Of a DNA stretch of 64,000 nucleotides, positions 7,484 through 27,194 are shown in pieces (positions within the stretch are counted from its first letter, which is position 1; each line of letters opens with the position of its first letter). The notes beneath the pieces are model-generated. The model saw nothing but the letters and a program-made list of their open reading frames with translations, was not told the origin of the DNA and did not search any database. The position numbers were made by a program, and so were the translations under genes. This stretch comes from Palleronia aestuarii (lineage in GTDB: Bacteria; Pseudomonadota; Alphaproteobacteria; Rhodobacterales; Rhodobacteraceae): the NCBI RefSeq assembly GCF_003253995.1, contig NZ_QKZL01000005.1, positions 124,001 to 188,000 on the forward strand. Direction: 5' to 3'.

Positions 7484-7576
7484 TCGCGCTCTGCATTCCG
7501 GCGTCAACCGGCTGGCACGCGAGGGCGGAACGCGGTACCCGGTAGACGCATCTGGAAAACGGGAGAGGAGGACGAG

Positions 7577-8614: not shown

Positions 8615-8620
8615 GGGGCG

Positions 8621-9151: not shown

Positions 9152-9169
9152 TCGAGGGTCTGCCCCTCG

Positions 9170-10492: not shown

Positions 10493-10499
10493 GGTCCGC

Positions 10500-11126
10500 T
10501 CAGCCGGGCAGATGCGCGAAGTAGTAGGCCAGCGTCGCCATGTCGTCGTCCGAGAGCGGGGTGGCGATCTCCACCATCGCGGCGCGGGCGCCGATCCGGC
10601 GTTCCGCCTTGTAATCCTGCAGGGATTTCAGGATGTAATCCTCGTGCTGGTTGCGCAGGGGCGGCATCTGGCTGCCTCCGAGATACTCGGCGCCGTGGCA
10701 CGAGCCGCATCGGTTGGCATCGGCCAGCTTCGCGCCCGCCTCCATCCGCGCGGCGTCGGGCTCTTCCTCGGGCGGAGTGGGCCGGTCGAGCCCCGCGATC
10801 CAGTCCGAGGCGGCGCGCAGGTCGTCGTCGGACATGTCCGCGACCATGGAGTTCATGATCTCGTTCTCGCGGTCGCCCTCCCGGAAGGCCACGAGTTGCA
10901 GGAGCGCGTAATAGGCGTCGATCCCGCCCAAAGCCGGTGCGCCCTCGAGCGCCACCATGTCGCCGACCCCGTGACAGCCGGCGCATTGCTCCTTCGTCTC
11001 CTCGAAGAGATCCTGCGCCGCGATGGGGCCCGCCGCGAGGGCGAGGCCCACCATCGCCGCCAGCCCGAACGGGTGCGGCCCGGAACGTGTCCCGGGCCGC
11101 GAAGGACGGTCAGTTCCCGCCATCAT
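10500..11126 (-). CDS. Secreted dihaem cytochrome c
   Basis: The 208-residue protein has an N-terminal signal region (FGLAAMVGLALAAGPIAAQ) and two haem c sites, CAGCH at residues 48-52 and CGSCH at 140-144. The methionines in NSMVADMSDDD and SQMPPL are likely axial ligands. The layout resembles cytochrome c4-like proteins, joined by an acidic proline-rich linker (RPTPPEEEPDAARME). Its start overlaps the end of the PQQ-dehydrogenase gene by 17 bases, so it is most likely the electron acceptor of that enzyme in the periplasm. The initiation site within the first 25 residues is uncertain. Confidence 0.85.
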   Translation of the reverse strand: MMAGTDRPSRPGTRSGPHPFGLAAMVGLALAAGPIAAQDLFEETKEQCAGCHGVGDMVALEGAPALGGIDAYYALLQLVAFREGDRENEIMNSMVADMSDDDLRAASDWIAGLDRPTPPEEEPDAARMEAGAKLADANRCGSCHGAEYLGGSQMPPLRNQHEDYILKSLQDYKAERRIGARAAMVEIATPLSDDDMATLAYYFAHLPG

Positions 11127-12312
11127 AGCTCACGCGGTAGATCGCCCCGTTCCAGTCGTCGGAGACGAGCATGGAGCCGTCGGGCATCACCGCGACGTCG
11201 ACCGGGCGTCCGACATACTGATTGTCCTGGATGAAGCCCGTGAGGAACGGCTCCGTCCGCTCGATCCCCGTCTCCCCGTCGAGATAGGCGATCGCGACCT
11301 CCGCGCCTTCCTTCTCGGTGCGGTTCCAGGGGCCGTGCTTGGCGATGAAGATCTGGCCCTGGTACTCTTCGGGGAACATGTCGCCCTGGTAGAAGCGCAT
11401 GCCCAAGGGCGCGGTATGCGGCCCGAGAAGCGCGACCGGGTCGGTGAACTCGCTGCACTCGTGGCCCCAGCCGAATTCGGGGTCGGTGAAGAGCCCGTTG
11501 TGGCAATAGGGGAAGCCGAAATCCTGGCCCTCCTCGGTCAGGACGTTCAGCTCGTCCTCCGGGATGTCCTCCGACAGCCAGTCGCGCTGGTTGTCAGTGA
11601 ACCAGAGGTTGCCGGTTTCGGGGTGGAAGTCGAAGCCCACCGTGTTGCGCATTCCCGTCAGGATCGGTTCCGCGCCAGACCCGTCGAGGCCCATGCGCCG
11701 GATCTCCCCGAACCCCTCCTCGCGCGCGCAGATGTTGCAGGGCGAGGAATTGGAGACATAGAGCATGTCGTCGGGACCGATATCGACGAACCGCCAGCCA
11801 TGCGGGCGCGGCTCGCCCAGCTCGGAATAGATCTCCTTCAGCTCCGGCGGGTTGTCGAGATTCTCCATGATGTTCTCGGCCACGGAGATCTTCGTGTGCT
11901 CGGCGATGTAGAGATCGCCGTCGTGCAGCACGATGCCGTTCGGCCAGTCGAGATCCTCGTAGATCGTCCGGGGCTCCCCGCCTTCCTCGATCACGTAGAC
12001 GTCGTTGCCTTCCCAGTTGCCCACGAAGACCGTGCCGTCATCGGCCACCCGCAGCGTCCGGGCATTGTTCACGCCGGCCGCGAAGACCTCGACGGAAAAG
12101 CCCTCCGGCGCCTCGAGCATGTCGATGGGCAGCTGGTCTTCCGGCGTCGGCAGCGGCGGCGGCGTCTGGGGCGCCAGTTGCTGGGCCGCTTCCGTCTCGG
12201 GCCGACCTTCGAGCGGTCCGCCCGGTTCGTCGTCCTGCGCCCAACCGGCCTGACCGGCCATCGCGACGGGCGCGGCAAGCGCCAGGATCAGCGCGCCTCT
12301 GAAATCTCTCAT
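11110..12312 (-). CDS. PQQ-dependent sugar dehydrogenase family protein (sorbosone/glucose dehydrogenase-like)
   Basis: The 400-residue secreted protein has a signal peptide ending near AGWAQ, then an acidic, proline-rich stretch (residues 27-60). The following beta-propeller domain matches PQQ-dependent soluble sugar dehydrogenases: PEGFSVEVFAAGVNNARTLRVADDGTVFVGNW, PNGIVLHDGDLYIAEHTKI, PHGWRFVDIGPDDMLYVSNSSPCNIC, and a C-terminal MPDGSMLVSDDWNGAIYRVSY. Conserved histidines in LGEPRPHGWRF and AKHGPWNR fit cofactor or base roles in the family. It would oxidise a sugar or polyol in the periplasm and pass electrons to the cytochrome c encoded directly downstream. No PQQ biosynthesis genes are in the window. 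Confidence 0.82.
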   Translation of the reverse strand: MRDFRGALILALAAPVAMAGQAGWAQDDEPGGPLEGRPETEAAQQLAPQTPPPLPTPEDQLPIDMLEAPEGFSVEVFAAGVNNARTLRVADDGTVFVGNWEGNDVYVIEEGGEPRTIYEDLDWPNGIVLHDGDLYIAEHTKISVAENIMENLDNPPELKEIYSELGEPRPHGWRFVDIGPDDMLYVSNSSPCNICAREEGFGEIRRMGLDGSGAEPILTGMRNTVGFDFHPETGNLWFTDNQRDWLSEDIPEDELNVLTEEGQDFGFPYCHNGLFTDPEFGWGHECSEFTDPVALLGPHTAPLGMRFYQGDMFPEEYQGQIFIAKHGPWNRTEKEGAEVAIAYLDGETGIERTEPFLTGFIQDNQYVGRPVDVAVMPDGSMLVSDDWNGAIYRVSYDGGN

Positions 12313-12384
12313 GATGTCTACCTCCCAGGAATCGATCCGCCTTGGGCGTTCGATACGTCACTCTCGCGCCCTGCGGGACACAAC

Positions 12385-12424
12385 ACAACCACGATGCGGC
12401 AGGAACAACCATGATGCGGCAAGA
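12385..12424 (+). repeat. Two head-to-tail 20-base repeats in a divergent promoter region
   Basis: Bases 12385-12404 and 12405-12424 are direct repeats identical at 18 of 20 positions, each carrying a GATGCGGCA core. They lie in the 245-base gap between the leftward PQQ-dehydrogenase gene and the rightward DUF4212/symporter pair. A period of about two helical turns would place two protein monomers on the same DNA face, as with tandem sites of response regulators. No regulator gene is adjacent. The rest of the gap holds no convincing gene. Confidence 0.55.
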
Positions 12425-12557
12425 GAGCGCCATTTGGTTCACGGATGACCGTATCGCTTATCCCGGGCTGGATTTCCGCGCCGTCTTGGGGCGTGATACC
12501 GGCGAGCCTCTGCCGCGAAGGACGGGCGGCGGAGGTCGGAATGCCTGGGAGGAACCA

Positions 12558-12845
12558 ATGGCGCAAAGACCAACTACCGGCCGAACCCGTGCCACGCGCG
12601 ACAGCGCGGGCTACTGGAAGGCCAATATCAGGACAATCATCGGATGCCTCGTCGTATGGGCGATCGTGAGCTTCGGCTTCGGCATCCTTCTGCGACCGAT
12701 CCTGTCGGGGATCGGCGTGGGCGGCACCGATCTCGGATTCTGGTTCGCCCAGCAGGGATCGATCCTGGTCTTCCTGATCCTCATCTTCTTCTACGCCTGG
12801 CGGATGAACCGCCTCGACCGGCAGTACGGCGTCGAGGAGGATTGA
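12558..12845 (+). CDS. DUF4212 small subunit of sodium:solute symporter
   Basis: The 95-residue protein has two membrane helices, IIGCLVVWAIVSFGFGILL and FWFAQQGSILVFLILIFFYAWRMNRLDRQYGV, matching DUF4212. This small family is encoded directly before VC_2705-type sodium:solute symporters. A GGGAGG motif lies about 7 bases before the ATG at 12558. The upstream extension of the frame lacks coding character. It probably forms a complex with the symporter that begins 4 bases after its stop. Confidence 0.88.
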   Translation: MAQRPTTGRTRATRDSAGYWKANIRTIIGCLVVWAIVSFGFGILLRPILSGIGVGGTDLGFWFAQQGSILVFLILIFFYAWRMNRLDRQYGVEED

Positions 12846-12849
12846 GCCG

Positions 12850-14631
12850 ATGGATCAGTATTACCTCAATCTGCTCGTCATCGGGGGATCCTTCGTCCTC
12901 TACATCGCCATCGCGCTCTGGGCGCGGGCGGGATCGACCTCCGAGTTCTACACCGCCGGTCGCGGCGTCCATCCGGTGATGAACGGCATGGCGACGGCCG
13001 CCGACTGGATGTCGGCCGCGTCCTTCATCTCTATGGCGGGCATCATCGCCTTCTCTGGCTATACCGCCTCGGCCTATCTCATGGGCTGGACCGGCGGCTA
13101 TGTGCTCCTCGCGCTCTGCCTCGCGCCCTACCTGCGCAAGTTCGGCAGCTTCACGGTGCCCGAATTCATCGGCGACAGGTATTACAGCCGGTCCGCGCGA
13201 CTCGTCGCGGTGCTCTGCCTCATCATCGCCTCGATCACCTACGTCATCGGGCAGATGACGGGCGTGGGCGTCGCCTTCTCCCGCTTCCTGCAGGTCTCGA
13301 ACTCCACCGGCCTCTTCATCGGGGCGGCGGTCGTGTTCTTCTACGCTGTTCTGGGCGGCATGAAGGGGATCACCTACACGCAGGTGGCGCAGTACATCGT
13401 GCTGGTCTTCGCCTACACGGTGCCCGCGATCTTCATCTCGTTGCAGCTCACCGGCAATCCGATCCCGGGCCTCGGCCTCTTCTCGACCTACGAGGGATCG
13501 GGTGAGCCGCTTCTTGCCACGCTGAACCAGGTGCTCGCCGATCTGGGCTTTGCCTCCTACACGGACCAGAACACCGATCCGTCGGCGATCATCAACATGA
13601 CGCTTTTCACGCTGACGCTGATGATCGGCACGGCGGGCCTGCCGCACGTGATCATCCGCTTCTTCACCGTGCCCAAGGTGTCGGACGCGCGGCTCTCGGC
13701 GGGATGGGCGCTCGTGTTCATCGCCATCGTCTATCTGACCGCCCCCGCGGTGGGCGCGATGGCGCGGCTCAACATCATGGACACGATCTGGCCCGGCGGC
13801 ACCCAGAACGCGGAGGCCATCGAGATCGACGAACTGCCCGTCTGGTTCGACAATTGGGAGACCACGGGACTTCTCGGGATCGAGGACAAGAACGGCGACG
13901 GACGGCTGCAATACTACAACGACGCGGGCGAGCCACCCGCGGGCCTCGGTGTCTCGCCGCTCGAGGGCAACGAGCTCGTGCTCTTCGATCGCGACATCCT
14001 CGTCCTCGCCAATCCCGAGATCGCGCAGCTTCCGGGCTGGGTCATCGCGCTCGTGGCCGCGGGCGGCATGGCCGCGGCGCTCTCGACCGCGGCGGGCCTC
14101 CTGCTCGCGATCTCGTCCGCGGTGAGCCACGACCTCGTGAAGCGCTCGATCAACCCGAACATCTCGGAGAAGGCTGAGCTCTGGTGGGCGCGCGGCGCGA
14201 TGGCCGCGGCGATCGCTGTGGCGACGTGGCTCGGCCTCAACCCGCCGGGCTTCGCGGCGCAGACCGTGGCGCTTGCCTTCGGGATCGCGGCGGCGACGAT
14301 CTTCCCCGCGCTGATGATGGGAATCTTCTCCCGCAGCATCAACAACGTGGGCGCCGTCTCGGGGATGCTGGTCGGCCTGATCTTCACCGTCGTCTACATC
14401 TTCCTGCACAAGGGGTGGTTCTTCATCCCCGGCACGGAGAGCTTCCCCGACACGATCCAGGGCTCCCTCTTCGGTATCGAATCGACGGCCATCGGCTGCA
14501 TCGGCGCGGCGCTGAACTTCGCGGTGGCCTTCCTCGTCTCGGGCGCGACCGCCGATACGCCCGACGAGGTGAAGGCGATGGTCGAACGGGTGCGCGTGCC
14601 GCATGACGGCGTCGGTACGCCCGCCGAATGA
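12850..14631 (+). CDS. Sodium:solute symporter, VC_2705/ActP-like
   Basis: At 593 residues with about 13 membrane helices, this matches the SSS-family acetate/solute symporters that pair with DUF4212. Landmarks are DWMSAASFISMAGIIAFSG near residue 55, GGMKGITYTQVAQYIVLVFAYTVP near 170, and GLPHVIIRFFTVPKVSDARLSAGWA near 260. A large extramembrane insert (residues about 315-385) carries DKNGDGRLQYYND at 346-358, an EF-hand-like loop. It probably imports acetate or another short carboxylate with Na+; the substrate is not certain. The hairpin terminator follows immediately. Confidence 0.9.
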   Translation: MDQYYLNLLVIGGSFVLYIAIALWARAGSTSEFYTAGRGVHPVMNGMATAADWMSAASFISMAGIIAFSGYTASAYLMGWTGGYVLLALCLAPYLRKFGSFTVPEFIGDRYYSRSARLVAVLCLIIASITYVIGQMTGVGVAFSRFLQVSNSTGLFIGAAVVFFYAVLGGMKGITYTQVAQYIVLVFAYTVPAIFISLQLTGNPIPGLGLFSTYEGSGEPLLATLNQVLADLGFASYTDQNTDPSAIINMTLFTLTLMIGTAGLPHVIIRFFTVPKVSDARLSAGWALVFIAIVYLTAPAVGAMARLNIMDTIWPGGTQNAEAIEIDELPVWFDNWETTGLLGIEDKNGDGRLQYYNDAGEPPAGLGVSPLEGNELVLFDRDILVLANPEIAQLPGWVIALVAAGGMAAALSTAAGLLLAISSAVSHDLVKRSINPNISEKAELWWARGAMAAAIAVATWLGLNPPGFAAQTVALAFGIAAATIFPALMMGIFSRSINNVGAVSGMLVGLIFTVVYIFLHKGWFFIPGTESFPDTIQGSLFGIESTAIGCIGAALNFAVAFLVSGATADTPDEVKAMVERVRVPHDGVGTPAE

Positions 14632-16188: not shown

Positions 16189-17508
16189 TCAGTGCAAGGC
16201 GGGCCGGGCGCGGCCGGACCGTGCGCCCGACCGCTCGGCCCTTGACGCAAATGATCCACCGGGCTGCAGGACCTCGCGCGCCGCCGTGTCCCCCGACCGG
16301 ATCGCGGCCTCGATGGAGGAGGGCAGGGGGCCTGCCACGTGGTCCCCGGCGAGAACGAGGTTCGCGATCCCCGTTCGCATGGAGGGACGCGCCGCGACCC
16401 CTGCGGGGGACTGATCCCAAGTCGCCGCGGGCGCGCGGACGAGGCGGCGCGCGTGGCAGGCGATCCGGCCGCCGCCGGCGCTCAGCTCGACATCTTCGAA
16501 GAGGCGGTCGAGCGCCGCGTCCCGCGACAGGGCCGAAAGGCCCACCGCCTCCGCGGCGGACACAGTGACGGAAAGCACGTCGCCGCGCCGGAAGATCCAG
16601 TGCGCGGCACCCGAGACGAGGCCCAGGAGTGGCGGGAATCGCTCGGCCTCGGCTTCCCCGACGCGGAAATGTGCGTTGAGAATGGTCTGTCCCGGCGCGG
16701 GCGGCGTGCTGCCGGTTGCCCGGGCGCCGGCGCTCGCACCGGCCGCGACGACGACATCGCCCTGGCCGAGGACCGCCGTCTCCCCGTTCGAGAAGCGCAG
16801 CCTGCGGAGGACGTCGCGGTCACGCTTCACCCCCTCAAGCGCCGCGCGCCAGACGATCCGCACGCCACGCGCCTTCAGTGCGGCGACCGCCGGATCCACG
16901 AGCGCCGGGCCGAGGCCGCCTTGTGCGAGGACTGGGCGGCTCGCCTTGGCGCCGCGCATCACCGTCCGCCGGATCACCGCGGCGAGGAGGCGTGCGGACC
17001 CCCGCTCCGCCGGCTCGTTCAGGACGGCGAGGCACATCGGCTCCCAGAAGCCATGCCAGAGCGTCCCGCGCCCGCCGATCGCCTCGGCGACCGTGGCACC
17101 GGGCCCCGCGCGCAGCAATCGGGAGAGATCGCGGGAGAGCGTCACGAGGGAGCCCGGGAGCCCGACCCGGCCCCGCAGCACGTCGCCGAGCCCGCCCGGG
17201 ACGCGCACCGTCCAGTCGGCACCGGTGGCGAGATCGACGAAGGGCAGCGCTGCGTCCTCGATGCGCAGGTGGTGCTCCGATCCGATCCTGCGGACGTAGT
17301 CGAGCACGGCGTGGTTGCCCGAGAGCATGAGGTGATTACCGTTGTCGATCACCCGGTCGAGCGTGCGGTCGTGAAAGCTCCAGCACCGCCCCCCCGCGCG
17401 GCCCGTCGCCTCCCAAAGGGTGATCGCCAGCCCCGGTTCAGCGCTCAGACGAAGCGCGGCGGCGAGCCCGGCGAGCCCGGCGCCCACGACATGGACGTGC
17501 CGCGTCAT
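16189..17508 (-). CDS. hpnE: Hydroxysqualene dehydroxylase (FAD-dependent)
   Basis: The 439-residue protein begins with an FAD-binding motif (VHVVGAGLAGLAAALRLS) and continues ITLWEATGRAGGRCWSF and DNGNHLMLSGNHAVLDYV, typical of HpnE. HpnE reduces hydroxysqualene to squalene using FADH2, the last step of the HpnC/HpnD/HpnE route. The ATG at 17508 overlaps the hpnD stop by ATGA, so the enzymes are translationally coupled. The region C-terminal to residue 430 is arginine-rich. No squalene-hopene cyclase gene is in the window, and the divergent operon encodes squalene-type carotenoid enzymes, so squalene probably feeds C30 pigment here. Confidence 0.88.
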   Translation of the reverse strand: MTRHVHVVGAGLAGLAAALRLSAEPGLAITLWEATGRAGGRCWSFHDRTLDRVIDNGNHLMLSGNHAVLDYVRRIGSEHHLRIEDAALPFVDLATGADWTVRVPGGLGDVLRGRVGLPGSLVTLSRDLSRLLRAGPGATVAEAIGGRGTLWHGFWEPMCLAVLNEPAERGSARLLAAVIRRTVMRGAKASRPVLAQGGLGPALVDPAVAALKARGVRIVWRAALEGVKRDRDVLRRLRFSNGETAVLGQGDVVVAAGASAGARATGSTPPAPGQTILNAHFRVGEAEAERFPPLLGLVSGAAHWIFRRGDVLSVTVSAAEAVGLSALSRDAALDRLFEDVELSAGGGRIACHARRLVRAPAATWDQSPAGVAARPSMRTGIANLVLAGDHVAGPLPSSIEAAIRSGDTAAREVLQPGGSFASRAERSGARSGRARPALH

Positions 17509-18362
17509 GCCGTGCGGCCGCCGCGCGCCATGCAATAGAGCCCGTCCACCGCCTTGCGCCAGCCGGGCCTTGGGGAGGGCACGCGCCAATCCCGCTCCAT
17601 CTGCCGCAGGAGACGCTCGTAAGGGCCCATCATCAGAAGCGCCGGGGCGAGGCGGACCCGACCGTGCGGCGCCACGTCGCGTGCCGCCTCGCGGAAGGCG
17701 GCCCTGGCACGGCGGCCGAGCTCGGCGCGGGCCAGGGGAAGGTTCGGCGCGGCGGCGATCCGCGCGGGATCGGCCGGAACGCCGGTCAGCACGAGGACCT
17801 CGCGCGGAATGTAGATGCGGCCCATCCCGGCATCCTCCTCCACGTCGCGCAGGATGTTGGTAAGCTGCATCGCTTCGGCGAGGGCGAGGGCGAACCGCTC
17901 GGAGGGTGCGCCGCGCCAGGCGCCGAAAATGCGCATGCTGAGAAGCCCGACCGCACCCGCGACCCGCCGGATATACCGGTCGAGCACCTCGCCCGTGGGT
18001 GCCACGATCGGCTCGATGTCCATCCGCATCCCGTCGAGGACCAGATGGAACTCCGCCTCCGGCAGGTCGAAGCGCTGCGCCGCGATCTCGAGCTTGGCGC
18101 CGAGAGGCGTCTCGGGGCGGCCGGCGAAGACGGCGGTGATCTCGTCCTCCCAGAAGGCCAAGCGCGCGGCCTTAAGGTCGGGCGTGCCCGCGCCGTCGAC
18201 GATGTCGTCGACGATGCGGCAGAATGCGTAGGTGGCGTAGATCGCCTCCCGCCGTGCGGCGGGCAGCACGCGCATGCCGTAGCGGAAGGAGGAGCCGGAC
18301 CCGGCGACGATCTCCTCGAGGCTCCGCTGCCGCCAGATTTCCGGGAGCGATCCGTCCTTCAC
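17505..18362 (-). CDS. hpnD: Presqualene diphosphate synthase
   Basis: The 285-residue protein belongs to the squalene/phytoene synthase family and has both Mg-diphosphate motifs: DDIVD at residues 52-56 and DVEED at 173-177 (NILRDVEEDAGMGRIYIP). The sequence SSFRYGMRVLPAARREAIYATYAFCR is HpnD-like. HpnD condenses two farnesyl diphosphates to presqualene diphosphate. The start is GTG at 18362, overlapping the hpnC stop as GTGA; a longer upstream frame would lie inside hpnC and is not coding. It is the middle gene of hpnC-hpnD-hpnE. Confidence 0.88.
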   Translation of the reverse strand: MKDGSLPEIWRQRSLEEIVAGSGSSFRYGMRVLPAARREAIYATYAFCRIVDDIVDGAGTPDLKAARLAFWEDEITAVFAGRPETPLGAKLEIAAQRFDLPEAEFHLVLDGMRMDIEPIVAPTGEVLDRYIRRVAGAVGLLSMRIFGAWRGAPSERFALALAEAMQLTNILRDVEEDAGMGRIYIPREVLVLTGVPADPARIAAAPNLPLARAELGRRARAAFREAARDVAPHGRVRLAPALLMMGPYERLLRQMERDWRVPSPRPGWRKAVDGLYCMARGGRTA

Positions 18363-19225
18363 GGCAAACCGCCGATCATCGCCCGCGGCTGCGGTCGGCG
18401 CAGGCAGGCGGCCGCTCCGCGGATCGCGGCCCCGGCGAAATCCGTTCGCCCCGGCGCGACCCGACCCGCCATCGGATCGGCGCGGCACAGCCGGTCGTGA
18501 AGCCGCGTGGCCAAAAAGTGGATCGCCCGTACCTCGCCCGAGAGGCGGCGCGAGGCGAGGAGTGCCGGGAGTTCGGCCGCGCGGTGCAGCAGCCCGGCGG
18601 CCCGGCACAGGGCGTCGTCGATCGCCGCTCGCAATGCGGGCGACGCGTGGTTCTCGCGCAACGCTGCTTCAGAGTGCGGGAGAAGGTCTTCGGGCATGTA
18701 GATGCGGTCGAGCTCCCGGAAGTCCCGGCCGAGGTCCTGCAGGTGGTTGAGGATCTGCAATGCCGTGCAGAGCGCGTCGGACGGGGCATGCGTACTCGGC
18801 GCCTCGCCATGGAGATCGAGCAGGAACCGTCCGACCGGATCGGCCGACATCCGGCAATAGGCCAGCAGCTCCTCCCAGGTGGCGTAGCGGGTCTTGATCG
18901 CATCTTGCCGAAAGGCCCCGAGAAGCGCGCGGGCATGCCGCACGCCCTCTGCATGGCCCGTCGTCTCGAGTGTTTCCCGAAGCGTACGGGCCACCGGTTC
19001 GCCGGCTGGAGTGCCGTCCAGACCCCGATCGAACTCCCCGAGCCGCGCGAGCTTCGCGTCCGCTGTGAGGTTCGGGTCGTCGGCGACATTGTCGGCGCGC
19101 CGTGCGAATCCGTAGAACGCGTGGACGATCGGCCGCAAGTCGCGGCGAAGGAGCAACGATCCCACCGGGAAATTTTCGGATTTCATCGCGGTCGTTTCGA
19201 TCACGGCTGTACCATTTCGTCGCAT
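18359..19225 (-). CDS. hpnC: Hydroxysqualene synthase
   Basis: The protein is up to 288 residues and belongs to the squalene/phytoene synthase family. HpnC features are ENFPVGSLLLRRDLRPIVHAFYGFARRADNVADD near the N-terminus, with DNVAD at 45-49, and DLGRD at 164-168 followed by IYMP. HpnC converts presqualene diphosphate to hydroxysqualene. The start could be ATG 19225, a GTG at 19204, or ATG 19186 just before KSENFPV; homologues begin about 10 residues before ENFP, so a downstream start is possible. It heads the leftward operon opposite the carotenoid operon. Confidence 0.87.
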   Translation of the reverse strand: MRRNGTAVIETTAMKSENFPVGSLLLRRDLRPIVHAFYGFARRADNVADDPNLTADAKLARLGEFDRGLDGTPAGEPVARTLRETLETTGHAEGVRHARALLGAFRQDAIKTRYATWEELLAYCRMSADPVGRFLLDLHGEAPSTHAPSDALCTALQILNHLQDLGRDFRELDRIYMPEDLLPHSEAALRENHASPALRAAIDDALCRAAGLLHRAAELPALLASRRLSGEVRAIHFLATRLHDRLCRADPMAGRVAPGRTDFAGAAIRGAAACLRRPQPRAMIGGLP

Positions 19226-19288
19226 GCTTTCATTGCCGGTCGTATTAAGTCTTCTTTTAACAGATCACGACGCCAAGGTTAGCAGACA
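19226..19288. promoter_or_regulatory. Divergent promoter region between hpnCDE and the carotenoid operon
   Basis: Only 63 bases separate hpnC from the DUF2141 gene. This stretch is clearly richer in A and T than its surroundings (TATTAAGTCTTCTTTTAAC). It must hold promoters for both operons, which suggests joint control of squalene supply and pigment formation. I could not assign a confident -35/-10 pair or a known operator such as the TGT-N12-ACA box of photosynthesis genes. Confidence 0.5.
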
Positions 19289-19741
19289 ATGGAGAAGCGA
19301 CCATTCCCCGTGCTCAGAGAACGTGGCCAGTCCCTTCTTCTGGCACTTTTTGCGACCTTATGTCTCGGAAGTGCCGCGTCGGCGGCCGACGTCTCGGTCC
19401 TCGTAGACGGGCTGCGGGGCGAGGTGGGGCTGTTGCGCGTGGCGATCTGTACGCAGGGCGACTTCCTGACGGCCAAGTGCGCGATCACGGCTTCGGCACC
19501 CGCGCCGCAGGGAAAGGTGCGGCTTTCCGACGTCCCCGCGGGACAATACGCGATTCAGGCCTACCATGACGAGAATTCCAATGGGCGGCTGGACCGTAAT
19601 ATGCTGGGACGGCCGATGGAGGGGATGGCATTCAGCCGCGACGCGCCGATGCGCTTCGGCCCGCCGCGCTACGCGGATGCGGTTGTGACGATCCCCGAGA
19701 CCGGCGGTACGACGACGATGACCATGAGGTACTTCCGATGA
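19289..19741 (+). CDS. Secreted DUF2141 domain protein
   Basis: The 150-residue protein has a signal peptide (LLLALFATLCLGSAASAA, cleavage near residue 33). A single DUF2141 domain follows: GEVGLLRVAICTQGDF, VPAGQYAIQAYHDENSNGRLDRNMLG, then a glycine/threonine-rich C-terminus. The DENSNGRLD segment resembles a calcium-binding loop and is characteristic of the family. Function is unknown. It is the first gene of the carotenoid operon and its stop overlaps crtN as ATGA. A periplasmic protein tied to a pigment operon could handle or anchor the pigment at the envelope, which is speculation. Confidence 0.85.
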   Translation: MEKRPFPVLRERGQSLLLALFATLCLGSAASAADVSVLVDGLRGEVGLLRVAICTQGDFLTAKCAITASAPAPQGKVRLSDVPAGQYAIQAYHDENSNGRLDRNMLGRPMEGMAFSRDAPMRFGPPRYADAVVTIPETGGTTTMTMRYFR

Positions 19742-21294
19742 ACATGTCCATGTCCACCCGATCGCGTGATGTCGTCGTCATCGGCGCGGGGCCGGGCGGG
19801 CTCGCGTCCGCCATGCTCCTGCGGGCCGCTGGCGCCAAGGTCACCGTGCTCGAGCGCGGGGACCAGGTCGGCGGGCGAACCGGCGTCATCCGCCAGGACG
19901 GTTACACGTTCGACGTGGGGCCGACCTTCTTCCTCTATCCCGAGGTCCTGCGCGAGATCTTCTCTGCCTGCGGTCGCTCCTTCGATGCGGAAGTCGAGAT
20001 GACGCGGCTCGAGCCGATGTACCGCCTGCAATTCGACGACGGCACCATCGTGGAGGCGACCGCGGACGTGGAGCGCCTGACCGAGCAGGTGGCGCGGATC
20101 GATCCCGAGGACGCGAAGAACGTCGCGCCCTATCTTGCGGAGAACAAGGCGAAGTTCGACGTCTTCCGGCCGATCCTGCAACGGCCCTTCCACAATCTCG
20201 GCTCGCTGATGAAGCCAGACATGGCGCGCGCCATGCCGCTCTTCCGCCCGTGGCTCACCGTCGATCAGGATCTGCGCCGCTGGTTCAAGAACCCCGATGT
20301 GCGGCTCGCCTTCTCGTTCCAGTCGAAATACCTGGGGATGTCCCCCTTCAAGTGTCCCTCGCTCTTCACGATCGTGGCCCATGTGGAATACGGCTTCGGC
20401 GTCTTCCACCCCACGGGCGGCGTGAACGCGATCCCGCGCGCCATGGCACGGGTCGCGCGGGAGATGGGCGTGGACATCCGCCTGTCGGAGCCGGTCGAGC
20501 GGCTGACCTTCGAGGGGCGGCGCGCGACGGGCGCGATCACCAAGGGGGGCACCTATCCGGCCGACGCGGTGGTGGTGAACGGCGATTTCGCGAGCACGAT
20601 CCAGCAGATCGTCCCCGACAAGCTGCGCCGACGCTGGACCGACAAGAAGATCGCGTCGAAGAAATATTCCTGTTCGACCTTCATGCTCTATCTCGGGCTC
20701 GAGGGGCAGTTCCCGGACATGCACCACCACACGATCTTCCTTTCGAATGACTACCTCACGAACATCCGGGAGATCGACGCGGGCGATGCCCCGAAGGAGC
20801 CCACGATCTACGTGCAGAACGCCTCCGTCACCGATCCGACGCTGGCCCCCGAAGGGCATTCGGCGCTCTACGTCCTCGTCCCCGTGGGCAATCTCAACGG
20901 CAACACGGACTGGAAGACGCTGGCGCCGCTCTATCGCGAGAAGATCCTGACCCGGCTCGAGCGGCTCTGCGGCCACGATATCCGACCGAAAATCAGAACG
21001 GAGCTGATGTTCACGCCCGAAGATTGGCAGGCGCAGCAAGGCGTCTATCGCGGCGCCACCTTCAACCTCGCGCATAATCTCGGGCAGATGCTGCACTGGC
21101 GGCCGCGCAACCGGTTCGAGGACGTGGACGGCGTCTATCTCACGGGCGGCGGCACCCATCCCGGATCGGGCCTGCCCACGATCTTCGAGAGTGCCAAGAT
21201 CGCGAGCAAGCTTGCCGCGGATGATCTGGGCCTCGACCGCGCCGGCACGATCCCCGACATTCGCCCCGCACAGGAAGAGGAGATCGCGGAATGA
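19738..21294 (+). CDS. crtN: CrtN-like diapophytoene/squalene desaturase
   Basis: The 518-residue protein belongs to the CrtI/CrtN amine-oxidase-like desaturases. It has the FAD motif DVVVIGAGPGGLASAMLLRAAGAKVTVLE at the N-terminus, DVGPTFFLYPEVLREIFSACG near residue 60, KYSCSTFMLYLGLEG near 308, and the C-terminal GGTHPGSGLPTIFESAKIAS. Those C-terminal and mid-protein segments resemble staphylococcal CrtN, which desaturates C30 diapophytoene. With HpnCDE upstream the substrate here is probably squalene or hydroxysqualene (inference). Start and stop overlap the neighbouring genes by four bases each. Confidence 0.82.
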   Translation: MNMSMSTRSRDVVVIGAGPGGLASAMLLRAAGAKVTVLERGDQVGGRTGVIRQDGYTFDVGPTFFLYPEVLREIFSACGRSFDAEVEMTRLEPMYRLQFDDGTIVEATADVERLTEQVARIDPEDAKNVAPYLAENKAKFDVFRPILQRPFHNLGSLMKPDMARAMPLFRPWLTVDQDLRRWFKNPDVRLAFSFQSKYLGMSPFKCPSLFTIVAHVEYGFGVFHPTGGVNAIPRAMARVAREMGVDIRLSEPVERLTFEGRRATGAITKGGTYPADAVVVNGDFASTIQQIVPDKLRRRWTDKKIASKKYSCSTFMLYLGLEGQFPDMHHHTIFLSNDYLTNIREIDAGDAPKEPTIYVQNASVTDPTLAPEGHSALYVLVPVGNLNGNTDWKTLAPLYREKILTRLERLCGHDIRPKIRTELMFTPEDWQAQQGVYRGATFNLAHNLGQMLHWRPRNRFEDVDGVYLTGGGTHPGSGLPTIFESAKIASKLAADDLGLDRAGTIPDIRPAQEEEIAE

Positions 21295-22820
21295 GCACGA
21301 CCGGCATCATCGGCGGTGGATTGGGCGGACTGGCCGCAGCCTGCACGCTGGCCGCCCGCGGCCATGACGTCACGCTTCTGGAGCGCAATTCCTGGCTCGG
21401 CGGCAAGGCGGCCGTGCTCGAACGCGACGGATTCCGCTTCGACATGGGGCCGACGATCCTGACCATGCCGCGGGTGCTCGAGCGCATCTTCGCCGAGGCA
21501 GGACGCGAGCTGTCGGATTATCTCGACCTGCGCCGGCTCGACCCGCAATGGCGCTGCTTCTACGATGACGGCTCGGTGCTCGACCTCGCCGACGACCGGG
21601 AGACGATGCGCAGGACGTTGCAGGATTTCGCGCCGGGCGACGTGCAGGGATACGAGGATTTCCTGAAAGTCGCGAACCGCCTGTCGGAGGTGTCCGACCG
21701 CTTCTTCTTCTGGAAGTCGGTCGAGGATCTGCGCGACACGATGAACATGAAGACGTCGATGTCGCTCGCGACTCTCTCGGACGTCCTGTCGCTCCGGATG
21801 CACCGGACGGTCGCCGACCAGGTCAAGCGCAACGTGAAGGACAAGCGTCTCGCGCAGATGCTGGAACACTTCATCCAGTACGTGGGGTCGTCGCCGCTCG
21901 CGTCCCCTGCCGTGCTCTGCGGGATCGCGCAGATGCAGGTGGGCGAAGGGGTCTGGTACCCAATGGGCGGCACCCGCGCGGTGCCCCGCGCGCTGACGCG
22001 TCTCGCCGAGGATCTGGGCGTCACGTTCCGCACCGGCATCGAGGTCGAACGGATCGAGACCGAAGGCGGGCGTGCCACGGCTGTAATGGCCGCGGGCGGG
22101 GAGCGGATGGCCTTCGACCGGATCGTGTCGAACATGGACAGCGTGCGCACCTACCGCGAGCTTGTGGGCGGCACGGCCTGGGAGAACTTCCAGAAGGGCC
22201 GCAAGCGCGAGCCCGCCTGCTCGGGCGTCGTCCTCTATCTCGGGCTTGACCGTGCCTACGAGCATCTCGCGCACCACAATTTCGTCTTCTCGAACAACCC
22301 CGAGGACGAGTTCCGCGAGATCTATGACGAGGGCCAGCCCGCCGCCGATCCTACCGCCTATATCGCGGCACCCGCCCGGACGGAGCCCGGCGTGGCGCCC
22401 GAGGGGGGCGAGGCGCTCTACATCCTCGTCCATACGCCCTACCTGCGCGAGGGCCATGACTGGTCGAAGATGCTGCCCGAGTACCGCCGCACGATCCTCG
22501 ACAAGCTCAAGCGCACCGCGGGGATGGAAGATATCGAGGAGCGGATCGTCACCGAGGACGTACTGACGCCGCAGGATATCAACGACCGCTACAAGGTGCT
22601 CGACGGGGCGATCTACGGGCTCGTGAGCCACGGCAAGGTCAACGGCGCGTTCAAGCCCGGCAACCGCTCGCGGCAGGTGCCGGGCCTCTATCTCGCGGGC
22701 GGCTCCGCGCATCCGGGACCGGGCATGCCGATGGCGCTGATGTCGGGCTGGATCGCGGCCGACAGCCTGCACCAGGACGCGACTCGGAACACCGCGCCCC
22801 GCGATGTCGCGGCCGAGTGA
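21291..22820 (+). CDS. crtP: CrtP-like diapocarotenoid terminal oxidase
   Basis: The 509-residue protein is homologous to CrtN but closer to staphylococcal CrtP. Shared segments include GGGLGGLAAACTLAARGHDVTLLE, DMGPTILTMPRVLERIF, RRLDPQWRCFYDDGS, MLEHFIQYVGSSPLASPAVL, LAHHNFVFSN and GGSAHPGPGMPMALMSG. CrtP oxidises the terminal methyl of 4,4'-diaponeurosporene to the aldehyde, which an aldehyde dehydrogenase then converts to the acid. An aldehyde dehydrogenase gene is present at the end of this block. It overlaps crtN by ATGA and the acyltransferase gene by 17 bases. Confidence 0.83.
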   Translation: MSTTGIIGGGLGGLAAACTLAARGHDVTLLERNSWLGGKAAVLERDGFRFDMGPTILTMPRVLERIFAEAGRELSDYLDLRRLDPQWRCFYDDGSVLDLADDRETMRRTLQDFAPGDVQGYEDFLKVANRLSEVSDRFFFWKSVEDLRDTMNMKTSMSLATLSDVLSLRMHRTVADQVKRNVKDKRLAQMLEHFIQYVGSSPLASPAVLCGIAQMQVGEGVWYPMGGTRAVPRALTRLAEDLGVTFRTGIEVERIETEGGRATAVMAAGGERMAFDRIVSNMDSVRTYRELVGGTAWENFQKGRKREPACSGVVLYLGLDRAYEHLAHHNFVFSNNPEDEFREIYDEGQPAADPTAYIAAPARTEPGVAPEGGEALYILVHTPYLREGHDWSKMLPEYRRTILDKLKRTAGMEDIEERIVTEDVLTPQDINDRYKVLDGAIYGLVSHGKVNGAFKPGNRSRQVPGLYLAGGSAHPGPGMPMALMSGWIAADSLHQDATRNTAPRDVAAE

Positions 22821-23604
22821 GGCGCGGCGGGGCGACCCCATCGGCCTTCGATCGGAGGCGCTCGCGCAGTTCTTCGCGGGCGTGATGCGGCGGCAGATGC
22901 GCCGGTCCTTCCGGGCCGTGCGCCTCGCCCGTCCGGGTCTGCCGGATCTGCCGGAGGGACGTCCGCTCGTCGTCTACGCCAACCATCCGTCCTGGTGGGA
23001 CCCGGCGTTCTTCATCGTCCTCGCCGCGGGTCCCCTCGCCGCCCGGCAGAGCTATGGCGTCATCGACGCGGAGATGCTGGAGAAGTACCGCTTCATGGGC
23101 CGCATCGGCCTTTTCGGGGTGGAACGCGATGCGCGACGGGGCGGCGTGGAGTTCCTGCGCGTGGCGGGTCGGGTCCTTTCCGATCCGGCACGGATGCTCT
23201 GGATCACTGCGCAGGGAGAGTTCAACGATCCGCGTCAGCGGCCCGTCACGCTCAGGACCGGGCTCGCGCGCCTGATGATCCGCCATCCCGACATCGTCGC
23301 ATTGCCGCTGGCCGTCGAATACCCGTTCTGGACCGAAAAGCGGCCAGAGGCGCTCGCGCGGTTTGGCGAACCGGTTCTGCTGCGTGACGGGGAAAGCGCG
23401 GAGGCATTGAACGATCGCCTCGCCGCGGGTCTCGAAGCCAGCATGGACGCGCTTTCCGCGATGGCACGGAACCGGTCTCCCGCGGAGTTCGAGCGGATCC
23501 TGTCTGGAACCGCGGGCGTCGGTGGGGTCTATGGTGTATGGGGTCGCCTGAAGGCCGCCGCGACCGGCCGGCGCTACGTCGCCGAGCACATGGAGGAGAA
23601 CTGA
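22804..23604 (+). CDS. Lysophospholipid-type acyltransferase (LPLAT/PlsC family)
   Basis: The 266-residue protein has the acyltransferase catalytic motif H61-PSWW-D66 (HX4D) in VYANHPSWWDPAFF. The downstream substrate motif is ITAQGEFNDPRQRP in place of the usual PEGTR. The ATG at 22804 lies 17 bases inside crtP. Position suggests it acylates the glycosyl group of the C30 pigment, the role CrtO plays for staphyloxanthin, although S. aureus CrtO belongs to a different, smaller membrane family. General phospholipid acylation cannot be excluded. Confidence 0.75.
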   Translation: MSRPSEARRGDPIGLRSEALAQFFAGVMRRQMRRSFRAVRLARPGLPDLPEGRPLVVYANHPSWWDPAFFIVLAAGPLAARQSYGVIDAEMLEKYRFMGRIGLFGVERDARRGGVEFLRVAGRVLSDPARMLWITAQGEFNDPRQRPVTLRTGLARLMIRHPDIVALPLAVEYPFWTEKRPEALARFGEPVLLRDGESAEALNDRLAAGLEASMDALSAMARNRSPAEFERILSGTAGVGGVYGVWGRLKAAATGRRYVAEHMEEN

Positions 23605-23607
23605 GCC

Positions 23608-24729
23608 CTGACCGTCCTCGCGATCGTCTGCTTCGCCCTCGCCGCGCTCTATGCGGGCGTGACCTTCTGCAATCTCGCGATCTTCCGGGCGCCGCCCGCG
23701 TTGCGGCACGGCGATGCGCCACCCGTCTCGATCCTGATCCCCGCCCGTAACGAGGCAGCGAACATCGGCCCCGCGATCGATCATGCGCTCGCGGGCGGCG
23801 GAGAGATCGAGGTCGTGGTGCTCGACGACGGGTCGGACGACGGGACCGGTCGGATCGTGGAAGAGCGTGCCGCCTCCGATCCCCGCGTGCGGCTTCTTTC
23901 CGGAAAGGGCCTGCCCAAGGGCTGGAACGGCAAGCAGCATGCCTGCTTCACGCTCGCGCGCGCGGCGCGTCACGACGTGCTGCTCTTCGTCGATGCGGAC
24001 GTGCGCATCGCGCCCGGCGGCGCCGCGCGGATGGCGGCCCATCTCGCCGCGCGCGGGCTCGATCTCGTCAGCGGCTTTCCCCGACAGCGGACCGAAACCC
24101 TCGCGGAAAAGCTCGTGATCCCGCAGATCTTCGTCCTTCTCCTGGGCTATCTGCCCCTTCCGATGGCGCGCGCTTTCCCGAGCGAGGGGTTCGCGGCCGG
24201 GTGCGGGCAGCTCATGATGGTGCGCAAGGACGCCTATGTCCGGTCCGGCGGACATGCGGAGATCCGCACGACGATGCATGACGGGCTGATGTTGCCACGC
24301 CTGATGCGCCGGACGGGAGGACGGACCGACCTCGTCGACGCGACGCCGCTCGCCACCTGCCGGATGTACGAGACCTGGCCCGAGATATGGTCCGGTTTCT
24401 CGAAGAATGCGACCGAGGGAATGGCCAAGCCCGTGGCCTTGCCGGTCTGGACGATCCTGCTCCTCGGCGGTCACGTCCTGCCCTATCTGCTCGTCGTCTC
24501 GATCCTCCTGTCGGGAGGGACAGGACCGCTCGGCTGGTCGCTCGCGGCCCTCGTCCTCGTTCTGGCCGCGCGGCTCGCGACGGCGCTGGTGGTCCGTCAA
24601 TCCATGCTCTCCGTCCTGCTCCATCCCGTGGCGATCTGCATCGTCCTCGCCATCCAATGGAACGCGCTCGTCGGCGCGGGCCGAGGCCGAGGGCGGAGCT
24701 GGCGCGGCCGGACCTATGACGCGAGCTGA
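23608..24729 (+). CDS. Membrane glycosyltransferase family 2, CrtQ/HpnB-like
   Basis: The protein has the GT2 fold: VSILIPARNEAANIG, VVVLDDGSDDGTG, and the metal-binding FVDADVRI (DxD), then MHDGLMLPRLMRRTGG and MYETWPEIWSGFSKNATEGM. The C-terminal 120 residues form about four membrane helices. The reading frame fits a CTG start at 23608, which adds an N-terminal hydrophobic helix (LTVLAIVCFALAALYAGV) usual in this family; a GTG at 23659 is the alternative. In staphyloxanthin synthesis CrtQ glucosylates diaponeurosporenoic acid, and the same step is likely here. It overlaps the sulfotransferase gene by 14 bases. Confidence 0.8.
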   Translation: MTVLAIVCFALAALYAGVTFCNLAIFRAPPALRHGDAPPVSILIPARNEAANIGPAIDHALAGGGEIEVVVLDDGSDDGTGRIVEERAASDPRVRLLSGKGLPKGWNGKQHACFTLARAARHDVLLFVDADVRIAPGGAARMAAHLAARGLDLVSGFPRQRTETLAEKLVIPQIFVLLLGYLPLPMARAFPSEGFAAGCGQLMMVRKDAYVRSGGHAEIRTTMHDGLMLPRLMRRTGGRTDLVDATPLATCRMYETWPEIWSGFSKNATEGMAKPVALPVWTILLLGGHVLPYLLVVSILLSGGTGPLGWSLAALVLVLAARLATALVVRQSMLSVLLHPVAICIVLAIQWNALVGAGRGRGRSWRGRTYDAS

Positions 24730-25834
24730 CCGTCCGTTTCCCTGGCACCGCGCCTTCCATCCGCTCTGCGGGGCCGATCCGGTCACGCTCCTCGAGCTCG
24801 CGGCACGGCGGGGCGGGCCGTCTTTCTCCGCGTGGCCGACCTTCGCGGTCGCGGTCGCCTGCTCGCTCGTTCGCGCGCCCTTCACCCTCATCGAGGCGGG
24901 GCTCGACCGGTTCGCCCGTGCGCCGTCCCATCCGCCGGTCTTCGTCGTGGGTCATCCCCGGAGCGGCACGACGCATCTGCACAACGTCCTCGCCGCGTCG
25001 GGCGCCTTCGCGGTCGTGCCGCCGGTCATCGCGACCCTGCCCTGGGAGCGGCGGACGATCGGGCCCATCATGCGGCCCTTCGTCAACGCGCGGCTGCCCC
25101 GGACCCGGCTCATCGACGGGGTCGCGATGCATCCCGACGATCCGACCGAGGACGAGATCGGCCTCGCCAATGCCGGGCCGCTTTCCTATTTCCACGCGCT
25201 CTACTTTCCTCGCCGTTTCGCCGAGGATTACCGTGCCGGGCTTCTCCATCGCGGCACGCCCCGGCAGCGGGCGCGCCGCGAACGGGCGATGGCTTGGTAC
25301 GTGCGGACCATGGGCCGCCGCCGCGCCGCGCCGCTCCTTCTGAAGAACCCCGCCTATACCGCGCATGTCGATCTGCTCGTGCGGCTCTTCCCGGGCGCGA
25401 AGGTGATCCACATCCACCGCGACCCGGCGGAAGTCTTCGCCTCCGCGCGCCGGGCGCTCAGGATCGCGCTCGACGAGATGGCGTTGCAGGATCCGCGCGG
25501 TGTCGATCTCGACGCGGCGATCCTTGCGACCTATCCCGAACTCATGGCGGGCCTGCGCCGATCGAGCGCGGGGCTCGGCCCCGATACTTTTAGGGAGGTG
25601 GCGTTCGCGGACCTCGTCTCCGATCCCGCGCGGGTTATCGGTCGGCTCTGGGACGATCTGGGCCTGCCGGGCGGCGCGGAGGCGCGGACCCGCGCCGAGG
25701 CCTATTGCGACGCGCAGGCAGGCTACCGCTCGCGTGCGGGGGTGCTCGAGGCGCGCGAGCTTGCCGCGCTGCGCCGACGCTGGCCGGAGGAGTTCGCCGT
25801 CTACGGACGGCTCAGCGCAGCAGGAACCGGATGA
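24716..25834 (+). CDS. PAPS-dependent sulfotransferase family protein
   Basis: The 372-residue protein belongs to the Sulfotransfer_3-like group. The 5'-phosphosulfate loop is VFVVGHPRSGTTHLHNVL (PRSGTT at 81-86), and the 3'-phosphate site is IHIHRDPAEVFASARRA (R235, S243). A hydrophobic stretch at residues 42-60 may attach it to the membrane. It starts 14 bases inside the glycosyltransferase gene, so it is tightly tied to the C30 pigment operon. Sulfated C40 carotenoids are known from marine alphaproteobacteria; a sulfated C30 product is inferred and would be unusual. Its end overlaps the convergent aldehyde dehydrogenase by 23 bases. Confidence 0.82.
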   Translation: MTRADRPFPWHRAFHPLCGADPVTLLELAARRGGPSFSAWPTFAVAVACSLVRAPFTLIEAGLDRFARAPSHPPVFVVGHPRSGTTHLHNVLAASGAFAVVPPVIATLPWERRTIGPIMRPFVNARLPRTRLIDGVAMHPDDPTEDEIGLANAGPLSYFHALYFPRRFAEDYRAGLLHRGTPRQRARRERAMAWYVRTMGRRRAAPLLLKNPAYTAHVDLLVRLFPGAKVIHIHRDPAEVFASARRALRIALDEMALQDPRGVDLDAAILATYPELMAGLRRSSAGLGPDTFREVAFADLVSDPARVIGRLWDDLGLPGGAEARTRAEAYCDAQAGYRSRAGVLEARELAALRRRWPEEFAVYGRLSAAGTG

Positions 25835-27194
25835 TCCGTTGGATCGCGGGGCCGTAGGGCGGACGGGCGAGCCCGATCGGGGCGAAACGCGAGCGGATGA
25901 CGACGCTGCGCGGCCGGGTGAAGCTGCGGAACCCTTCCTCGCCGTGATAGGCGCCCATCCCGCTTGCGCCGGCGCCGCCGAAGGGCAGGGAATGCACCGC
26001 CACGTGCAGGACGCTCTCGTTGACCATCGCCCCACCCGACCGGATCCGGCCCACCATCCGGTCGCAGGCCGCTTCGTCCTCGCCGTAGACATAGAGCGCG
26101 AGCGGGGTCGGCCGAGCGTTCACGAAGCCCGCCGCCGCTTCCGGCGTGTCGTAGGGCAGGATCGGCAGGATCGGTCCGAAGATCTCCTCCTGCATGAGCG
26201 GGCTCTCCGGATCGGGATCGACGACGGCCCAGGCGCCGAGGCGCGGGGGGTCTGGCATCTGCGCCATCAACGGAACCGCCTCGACCGCGTCCAGAAGCGC
26301 CTCGAGCCGGTCGCGGTCGGCGGGACGCGCGATAGCGGCGTAATCGGGGGATTCGGGATCGGGATAGAGCGTCGTCGCGGCGTCCTTGAGCGCCAAGACG
26401 TAGCGCGGGATCTCGGCCCGCGGCACCATGAGGTAATCGGGCGCCACGCAGGTCTGCCCTGCATTGAGAAGCTTGCCCGCCATGATCGAGACTGCCACAC
26501 GGTCGGGGTCGCTTTCGGGCAACGCGATGGCGGGCGACTTGCCGCCGAGTTCCAGGATCGTGGGCGTCAGGTTCTCCGCCGCTGCGGCGAGCACCTTGCG
26601 GCCGGTCTGGGTCGAGCCGGTGTAGAAGAGGCCGTCGAGCGGCATCCGCGCGAGCGCCGCCGCCACCTTCGTCCCGCCGGTCACGACGCGGACCCGCGCA
26701 CCCACCGCGCGGTGGACGACCTCCGCGAGAAGCTCCGCCGTGCGCGGCACGTGCTCGGAGGGGTGCAGGATCACGCGGTTGCCCCCCGCGAGCGCCGCGA
26801 CGAGCGGGACGAGGGCAAGCTGGACCGGGTAATTCCAAGGTGCGAGGATCCCCACCAGACCCAGCGGCACCCGTTCGACGCGCGCGCGCGACGGCAGGAA
26901 CTCGAGGGGCAGGACGACCCGCTTGGCCCGTGTCCAGCGCTTGAGCCGCCGCCGCGTCCAGCGGATGTTCTCGAGGACCATGGCGATCTCGGCAAGCATC
27001 GTCTCGACCCGCGGGCGGCCGCCGAAATCCGCGTCGATCGCCGCGGCGAAATCCTCGGCCGACGCGCGCAACTCTCGCGCGAGGGCATCGAGATGCCGCC
27101 GCCGGGCTGCGAGATCGAGCGGCGTTTCGTCCGGCGGTAGCCGGGATGCGGCGTCACGAAGAATATCGGGCAGATCGTGTTCCAAGTGGGACAA
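25812..27194 (-). CDS. Aldehyde dehydrogenase, coniferyl-aldehyde/diaponeurosporenal dehydrogenase-like
   Basis: The 460-residue protein has the ALDH catalytic set: N121 in PWNYP, E215 in LELGGKSP, C249 in NAGQTCVAP, and QEEIFGPILP near residue 330. The short length and C-terminal PFGGAGASGMGAYHGEEGFRSFTRPRSV place it in the coniferyl-aldehyde dehydrogenase-type branch, which includes CrtNc/AldH of staphyloxanthin-like pathways. The cofactor lysine of the usual KPSE motif is histidine here (HPSE, H144). The predicted start is TTG at 27194, with another TTG at 27185. It is convergent with and overlaps the sulfotransferase gene. It would oxidise the CrtP aldehyde to the C30 carboxylic acid. Confidence 0.82.
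   Translation of the reverse strand: MSHLEHDLPDILRDAASRLPPDETPLDLAARRRHLDALARELRASAEDFAAAIDADFGGRPRVETMLAEIAMVLENIRWTRRRLKRWTRAKRVVLPLEFLPSRARVERVPLGLVGILAPWNYPVQLALVPLVAALAGGNRVILHPSEHVPRTAELLAEVVHRAVGARVRVVTGGTKVAAALARMPLDGLFYTGSTQTGRKVLAAAAENLTPTILELGGKSPAIALPESDPDRVAVSIMAGKLLNAGQTCVAPDYLMVPRAEIPRYVLALKDAATTLYPDPESPDYAAIARPADRDRLEALLDAVEAVPLMAQMPDPPRLGAWAVVDPDPESPLMQEEIFGPILPILPYDTPEAAAGFVNARPTPLALYVYGEDEAACDRMVGRIRSGGAMVNESVLHVAVHSLPFGGAGASGMGAYHGEEGFRSFTRPRSVVIRSRFAPIGLARPPYGPAIQRIIRFLLR

Follow-up and report, generated by a model that had tools for sequence, protein, structure and literature searches.

A squalene-route C30 carotenoid gene block with a candidate pigment sulfotransferase in Palleronia aestuarii

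The genome of the marine alphaproteobacterium Palleronia aestuarii (Rhodobacteraceae; GCF_003253995.1) was studied over a stretch of 64,000 nucleotides of contig NZ_QKZL01000005.1 (positions 124,001 to 188,000, hereafter the window), which carries a block of ten genes at window positions 16189-27194. In this block hpnEDC are divergent from a row of genes encoding a DUF2141 protein, CrtN, CrtP, an acyltransferase (AT), a glycosyltransferase (GT) and a sulfotransferase (ST), with the gene of an aldehyde dehydrogenase (AldH) converging on them. We consider it highly probable that the block makes a squalene-derived C30 carotenoid which is then tailored. It is real, well explained and mostly an ordinary squalene-route C30 block, to which the ST adds an open chemical prediction. 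The C30 reading is drawn from the family matches of the proteins, the placement of both desaturases in a phylogenetic tree, the absence of a squalene-hopene cyclase (SHC), the co-occurrence of HpnC with CrtP, the conservation of the core genes in all 20 loci of the closest type, and the behavior of mutants in related bacteria.

In the proposed pathway, HpnC, HpnD and HpnE would convert two molecules of farnesyl diphosphate to squalene, which would be desaturated by CrtN and oxidized at its terminal methyl groups to aldehydes by CrtP. AldH would oxidize these aldehydes further to the carboxyl level, yielding a compound akin to 4,4'-diapolycopenedioate, to which the GT would attach a sugar as an ester, with the PlsC-type AT then adding a fatty acid to the sugar. 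Finally, the ST would render the pigment anionic by adding a sulfate, for which an unoccupied hydroxyl of the sugar is the likeliest site. The predicted product is a sulfated acyl-glycosyl diapocarotenoid, made beside separate C40 genes for the photosynthetic apparatus; we infer both its exact structure and the AldH step. Experiments in relatives have established the squalene route and the loss of colour upon deletion in Azospirillum, and the GT and AT steps in Methylobacterium.

The C30 route and the recurrence of the block

Gene identities were obtained from Pfam and NCBIfam profile searches, and these matches, together with open frames throughout, bear out the ten genes which the original prediction had named, in the same place, order and orientation. 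That prediction had also derived the C30 backbone from squalene enzymes instead of CrtM, and this is upheld by the presence of HpnCDE, by desaturases of squalene-route clades and by the SHC gene, singled out there for checking, which was not found in the host genome. Its statement that squalene-based C30 carotenoids occur in Methylobacterium-like bacteria was equally apt, close relatives of the block being the cassettes of Methylobacterium and Azospirillum. For the squalene route the principal publication is reportedly Santana-Molina 2022.

The desaturase phylogeny had been chosen beforehand as one test on which the C30 reading could fail, and both desaturases lie outside the C40 CrtI/CrtD clades. 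In this tree of 55 proteins, in which long branches were flagged for some reference rows including staphylococcal CrtN, the window CrtN groups with the CrtN proteins of Azospirillum brasilense, Methylobacteriaceae, Acidobacteria and one planctomycete (support 100/100), and the window CrtP with the matching squalene-route CrtP set (100/100). The latter clade is joined by staphylococcal CrtP and a Cytobacillus protein (99/93), and the host's own C40 CrtI and CrtD are placed apart from the window CrtN and CrtP. As far as sequence relationships can tell, the block represents a C30 route from squalene, and the C30 reading holds.

The recurrence of the block was followed across 99 loci (the window; L047-L138; L162, L163, L174, L176-L178) with 97 distinct CrtP sequences, the pairs L051/L063 and L052/L067 being identical; distinctness refers to sequence and not to species, A. 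brasilense being represented by L101, L109 and L174. Neighbours were counted up to 9 kb from crtP by tblastn at E 1e-5 with the window proteins as queries, and one homologue search was confined to the 80 highest-ranking among 578 confirmed stretches. Loci whose CrtP shares at least 75% identity with the window protein were designated Rhodobacterales-type (20 of the 97). All 20 have hpnCDE, crtN, AT and GT, with AldH in 18, DUF2141 in 11 and ST in 3. In the other 77, where the counts are minimum values because several loci are short contigs (in 53 of them crtP is flanked by 5.5 kb or more in both directions), we found crtN in 65, AT in 75, GT in 73, DUF2141 in 42, AldH in 31, hpnCDE in 11 and ST in 4. 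The succession crtP-AT-GT with crtN nearby recurs across Alphaproteobacteria, Acidobacteria and Planctomycetes: in Methylobacterium crtN lies a few kb from crtP, in several Acidobacteria the two are separated by an AldH gene, and hpnCDE also adjoin the cassette in Microvirga, Salinarimonas and Pseudoroseomonas. Such recurrence of the gene order in other genera is far beyond chance, and the complete block is therefore a recurrent arrangement of an established system and not a new one. Relatives of crtN with at least 55% identity occur in 13 of 146 genomes searched (host included) and in 6 of 14 within the genus; among 295 family genomes, drawn from a larger group, 7 have a CrtP match at E 1e-120 or better. 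A metagenome-assembled genome labelled Lysobacterales SP48 (L069) comes near the Rhodobacterales type (CrtN 63%, CrtP 72%), a likeness that may reflect either transfer or wrong binning.

The original prediction had regarded the combination of acyl, glycosyl and sulfo tailoring in one block as a new variant. Its acyl and glycosyl part proves to be the rule, the same order being met in other genera, and what stands of the claim is the ST, a true variation confined to few loci. The ST, which probably adds a sulfate, is the rare and unusual part of the block, and the novelty of the block rests on it.

The sulfotransferase and competing explanations

The ST gene (24716..25834, plus strand) overlaps the end of the GT gene and passes as Sulfotransfer_3, given a PF13469 match of 111 bits, obtained on the longer open reading frame 24407-25834, and its conserved stretches. 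An ST is present in 7 of the 97 distinct CrtP loci (one being a fragment), always directly behind the GT. Three of the four ST loci outside the Rhodobacterales type (L176-L178) were found by the ST search, their records also being in the CrtP list; without them the ST outside Rhodobacterales-type loci comes to 1 in 74, a fragment. It comes after the GT, in the same orientation, in the window, Palleronia sp. LCG004, Roseitranquillus sediminis, Azospirillum oryzae, A. ramasamyi and A. lipoferum. In Azospirillum agricola (L135 13541-14138) only the two ends of the ST were matched behind the GT, and this copy looks decayed. The proteins of the two alphaproteobacterial orders are 37-39% identical, and their alignment keeps the stretches GHPRSGTTH (GHWRSGTTH in Azospirillum) and HIHRDP, which we take to be the parts binding 3'-phosphoadenosine 5'-phosphosulfate (PAPS). 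Relatives of solved structure are weak (best E 4.6e-8, 2zq5), and a tree of 13 sulfotransferases fits either one origin or two recruitments of the Rhodobacterales and Azospirillum operon copies. Owing to the operon overlap, the kept motifs, purifying selection and the same slot in A. oryzae, A. lipoferum and A. ramasamyi, we give roughly even chances to the proposition that the ST sulfates the C30 pigment of the block. A short conserved operon with an ST in a fixed place would then provide a concrete gene for carotenoid sulfation.

Several observations weigh against the overall reading, and those concerning the ST lend themselves to a different explanation, in which the block makes an ordinary acyl-glycosyl C30 acid of the Methylobacterium type and the ST is a passenger or acts on a glycolipid or polysaccharide. 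The ST is absent from 17 of the 20 Rhodobacterales-type loci and from 73 of the other 77, and the host genome has 8 Sulfotransfer_3 matches. Homologues also occur outside carotenoid loci: when plasmids were searched with the ST, Azospirillum accounted for 10 of the 25 records matched, 3 of them at the crt operon and 7 elsewhere, of which one was examined. The homologue of A. brasilense Sp7 (L175, p1 7001-14304), with no internal stop in the alignment, lies in a hopanoid region with an MMPL transporter gene, an SHC and another DUF2141, and that of genome G017 (L164 767-10640) beside SHC, hpnCDE, a GT and an epimerase. Given these homologues in hopanoid clusters, the 8 matches in the genome and the absence from 17 of 20 loci, the ST substrate could be other than the pigment. 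However, the ST occupies the same slot behind the GT in two alphaproteobacterial orders, its start lies inside the GT gene, and it is under purifying selection, so that we regard the passenger explanation as a serious one with somewhat less than an even chance. The further points against the proposed reading are that HpnE, HpnD and HpnC, though the best NCBIfam matches of the three minus-strand proteins, each score below the curated cut-off; that a weakly supported group (88/12) unites squalene-route CrtN with C40 CrtI and leaves staphylococcal CrtN out; that SHC is present in two of the three cassette genomes outside the family (G102, G132), and hpnCDE are therefore not tied to pigment everywhere; that AldH is missing from 2 of the 20 Rhodobacterales-type loci, one of which (Roseitranquillus) has an ST; that two AldH homologues of Methylobacterium extorquens AM1 are dispensable, according to the accessible text of PMC10448405; and that the C30 pigment is a predicted one in this host.

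The wider ST group may act on squalene-derived lipids. We advance only tentatively, as an unlikely though specific proposal, that it is dedicated to them, with C30 carotenoids as substrates in some Rhodobacterales and Azospirillum and hopanoids in the hopanoid clusters, and that the window encodes the first sulfated acyl-glycosyl C30 carotenoid, in a phototroph equipped with C40 pigment genes as well. In accessible passages of the literature on carotenoid sulfates, on sulfotransferases with SHC and on sulfated C30 glycosyl carotenoids, among which few subscription papers were covered, no such enzyme or pigment is described. In the same partial coverage no report of hopanoid sulfation was found in the literature on sulfotransferases with SHC; sulfation of hopanoids by the ST homologues is possible. 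In Erythrobacter, from which C40 carotenoid sulfates are known, an extract had sulfating activity, and the accessible part of the report names no sulfotransferase gene (PMC6627997).

The second alternative is that the desaturases are C40 enzymes feeding the photosynthetic carotenoids, with hpnCDE serving hopanoids. The C40 crtB, whose presence had been raised as a check on the C30 claim, does occur elsewhere in the host genome, together with CrtI, CrtA, CrtD, bchI and reaction-centre genes: CrtA, CrtB, CrtD and BchI score above the NCBIfam cut-offs, and these four, a CrtI of the C40 clade and two reaction-centre matches lie on contigs other than that of the window (sites L013 on C2, L015 and C31:12626-14296). 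The host thus appears equipped with genes for spheroidene-type C40 carotenoids and photosynthesis, and is probably light-using. Moreover, the window CrtN and CrtP both belong to the CrtI family. Yet the tree sets both apart from the C40 clades, SHC is lacking, and 6 of the 12 cassette-bearing family genomes have no reaction-centre match, making a C40 role very improbable. Both pigment systems occur together in some members of the genus, and in P. marisminoris (G012) the C30 block is present but reaction-centre genes are not. Such a phototroph genus, in which the C30 and C40 gene sets are separate and members have either both or the C30 block with no reaction-centre genes, would allow the role of each to be separated. 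The joint presence of C30 and C40 pigments in a phototroph is not new, since several Methylobacterium species are said to hold glucosyl C30 carotenoids and spirilloxanthin, in the accessible text of PMC12093961.

The supply of squalene in the family points the same way as the desaturases. SHC was found in none of 20 family genomes tested (12 with the cassette, including the host, and 8 genus members without it), and squalene therefore would have no hopanoid outlet there. HpnC exceeds 200 bits in 10 of the 295 family genomes, including all 7 with CrtP; one of the three without CrtP has an SHC cluster beside hpnC, and in G264 and G270 no SHC was found near hpnC within the 10 and 16 kb examined. 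Together, this co-occurrence and the absence of SHC suggest that in this family squalene synthesis accompanies mainly this pigment. Squalene is a possible membrane lipid, and it might be argued on this general ground that the squalene of hpnCDE is an end product, the carotenoid genes beside it being independent. This is scarcely credible, as all 7 CrtP-positive genomes among the 295 of the family have HpnC above 200 bits and only three others do, one with SHC alongside, hpnCDE adjoin the cassette in 20 of 20 loci, and deletion of hpnCDE costs A. brasilense its colour.

Gene layout, DUF2141 and aldehyde dehydrogenase

The host genome comprises 4.54 Mb, and the window lies on its contig 5 (330 kb). 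On the minus strand of the block are hpnE (16189..17508), encoding hydroxysqualene dehydroxylase (TIGR03467, 253.4 bits, cut-off 283.05; 58% identity to the LCG004 gene); hpnD (17505..18362), encoding presqualene diphosphate synthase (TIGR03465, 253.9 bits, cut-off 278.6; PF00494); and hpnC (18359..19225), encoding the second squalene-pathway synthase (TIGR03464, 248.0 bits, cut-off 250.45). A gap of 63 bases separates hpnC from the DUF2141 gene (19289..19741; PF09912, 82 bits) on the opposite strand, the first gene of the crt operon. It is followed on the plus strand by crtN (19738..21294; crtI_fam, 528 bits, cut-off 238), assigned as the squalene-route desaturase by its tree clade; crtP (21291..22820; crtI_fam, 444 bits, same cut-off), likewise assigned as the diapocarotenoid terminal oxidase; the PlsC-type AT (22804..23604; PF01553, with an NHPSWWD stretch and 53% identity to the A. 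brasilense gene), in the place of META1p3664; and the GT2-type GT (23608..24729; PF00535, with a DAD stretch and 57% identity to the A. brasilense gene), in the place of META1p3663. The AldH gene (25812..27194, minus strand; PF00171, 249 bits) has a GQTC stretch. Since the pairs DUF2141/crtN, crtN/crtP, crtP/AT and GT/ST overlap, the genes from DUF2141 to ST look like a single operon. All ten genes are open, and their ratios of nonsynonymous to synonymous substitution (dN/dS) of 0.13-0.39 against Palleronia sp. LCG004, with 0.32 for the ST, indicate purifying selection. Likely refined starts are 17508 for HpnE, 18362 (GTG) for HpnD and the ATG at 24716 for the ST; from the comparison with LCG004, the GT perhaps starts at the CTG at 23608 instead of the listed GTG at 23659. 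Beyond the block, about a quarter of window 27200-52000 matches another part of the 411 kb plasmid of LCG004 at about 81%, so that the contig is possibly itself of plasmid or chromid nature.

DUF2141, for which secretion and a beta-sandwich fold are predicted, is encoded near the crt genes in 53 of the 97 distinct CrtP loci and often accompanies C30 carotenoid genes, in parallel to its link with crtG in Sphingomonadales, which is already in print in the accessible texts of PMC5989583 and PMC9241875. It occurs in 7 of the 12 cassette-bearing family genomes, each time once and adjoining crtN, and is absent from the 8 genus members without the cassette; over the family it is found in 4 of 7 CrtP-positive versus 12 of 288 CrtP-negative genomes (Fisher p 0.0002). 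Two cysteines are invariant in its alignment, whose consensus includes a D-E-N-x-N-G-x-L-D stretch. A PDB sequence search returned nothing up to E 1. A structural model with a predicted local distance difference test (pLDDT) score of 88.7 gave no Foldseek match at E 0.001 or better, and VIA-align returned common beta-sandwich folds (best Z 9.0, root-mean-square deviation 5.4, 90 residues); as only these common folds matched, the assignment of a function from the fold was dropped. Our guess is that DUF2141 takes part in carotenoid handling in the periplasm.

The AldH genes adjoining GT or ST are of two kinds: those that converge are 61-73% identical, and those that are codirectional 44-47%. In Azospirillum a relative of 32% identity lies upstream. 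These kinds and placements suggest that AldH was recruited repeatedly.

Comparison with known systems

The original prediction had framed the block as a variant of the staphyloxanthin pathway, a framing that does not survive comparison with the crtOPQMN-type plasmid operon of Staphylococcus xylosus, used here as reference. The chemical steps come in the same order and the CrtP clades join, as noted above. In contrast, CrtM is replaced by HpnCDE (26% identity between CrtM and HpnD, and 29%, over a short stretch, with HpnC), CrtQ is only weakly related to the window GT (26%), and BLASTP finds no match at E 10 between the 130-residue CrtO and the window AT, which is of the PlsC family; nor does staphylococcal CrtN group with the window CrtN alone.

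Palleronia sp. LCG004 has all ten genes of the block in unchanged order, there on the 411 kb plasmid. This cluster was named 'crtIP and hpnCD' and described as a carotenoid cluster, and the word squalene is absent from the main text of that paper (PMC11638410). The Methylobacterium/Methylorubrum cassette (META1p3663-3665) for acyl-glucosyl-diapolycopenedioate shares the crtP-AT-GT order, with CrtN within several kb and DUF2141 near CrtN in many records. In M. extorquens AM1, the GT and AT beside crtP tailor diapolycopenedioate to the acyl-glucosyl pigment, as deletion and complementation showed; unlike in the window, hpnCDE are in a locus with SHC, and the accessible text reports no AldH found (PMC10448405). 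The Methylobacteriaceae records compared also differ in having no ST match.

The operon of A. brasilense Sp7 runs crtN-crtP-AT-GT and then DUF2141, with AldH before it on the other strand. It resembles the window in the crtN-crtP-AT-GT order, in identity (CrtN 56%, CrtP 66%, AT 53%, GT 57-58%), and in having DUF2141 and a nearby AldH. It differs in an AldH just 32% identical, in a crt operon without ST, the homologue being in the hopanoid region instead, and in hpnCDE, which according to the accessible text of PMC13274349 are located elsewhere. The same text reports that deleting either crtNPOQ or hpnCDE abolishes carotenoids in A. brasilense and that the crtNPOQ deletion accumulates squalene.

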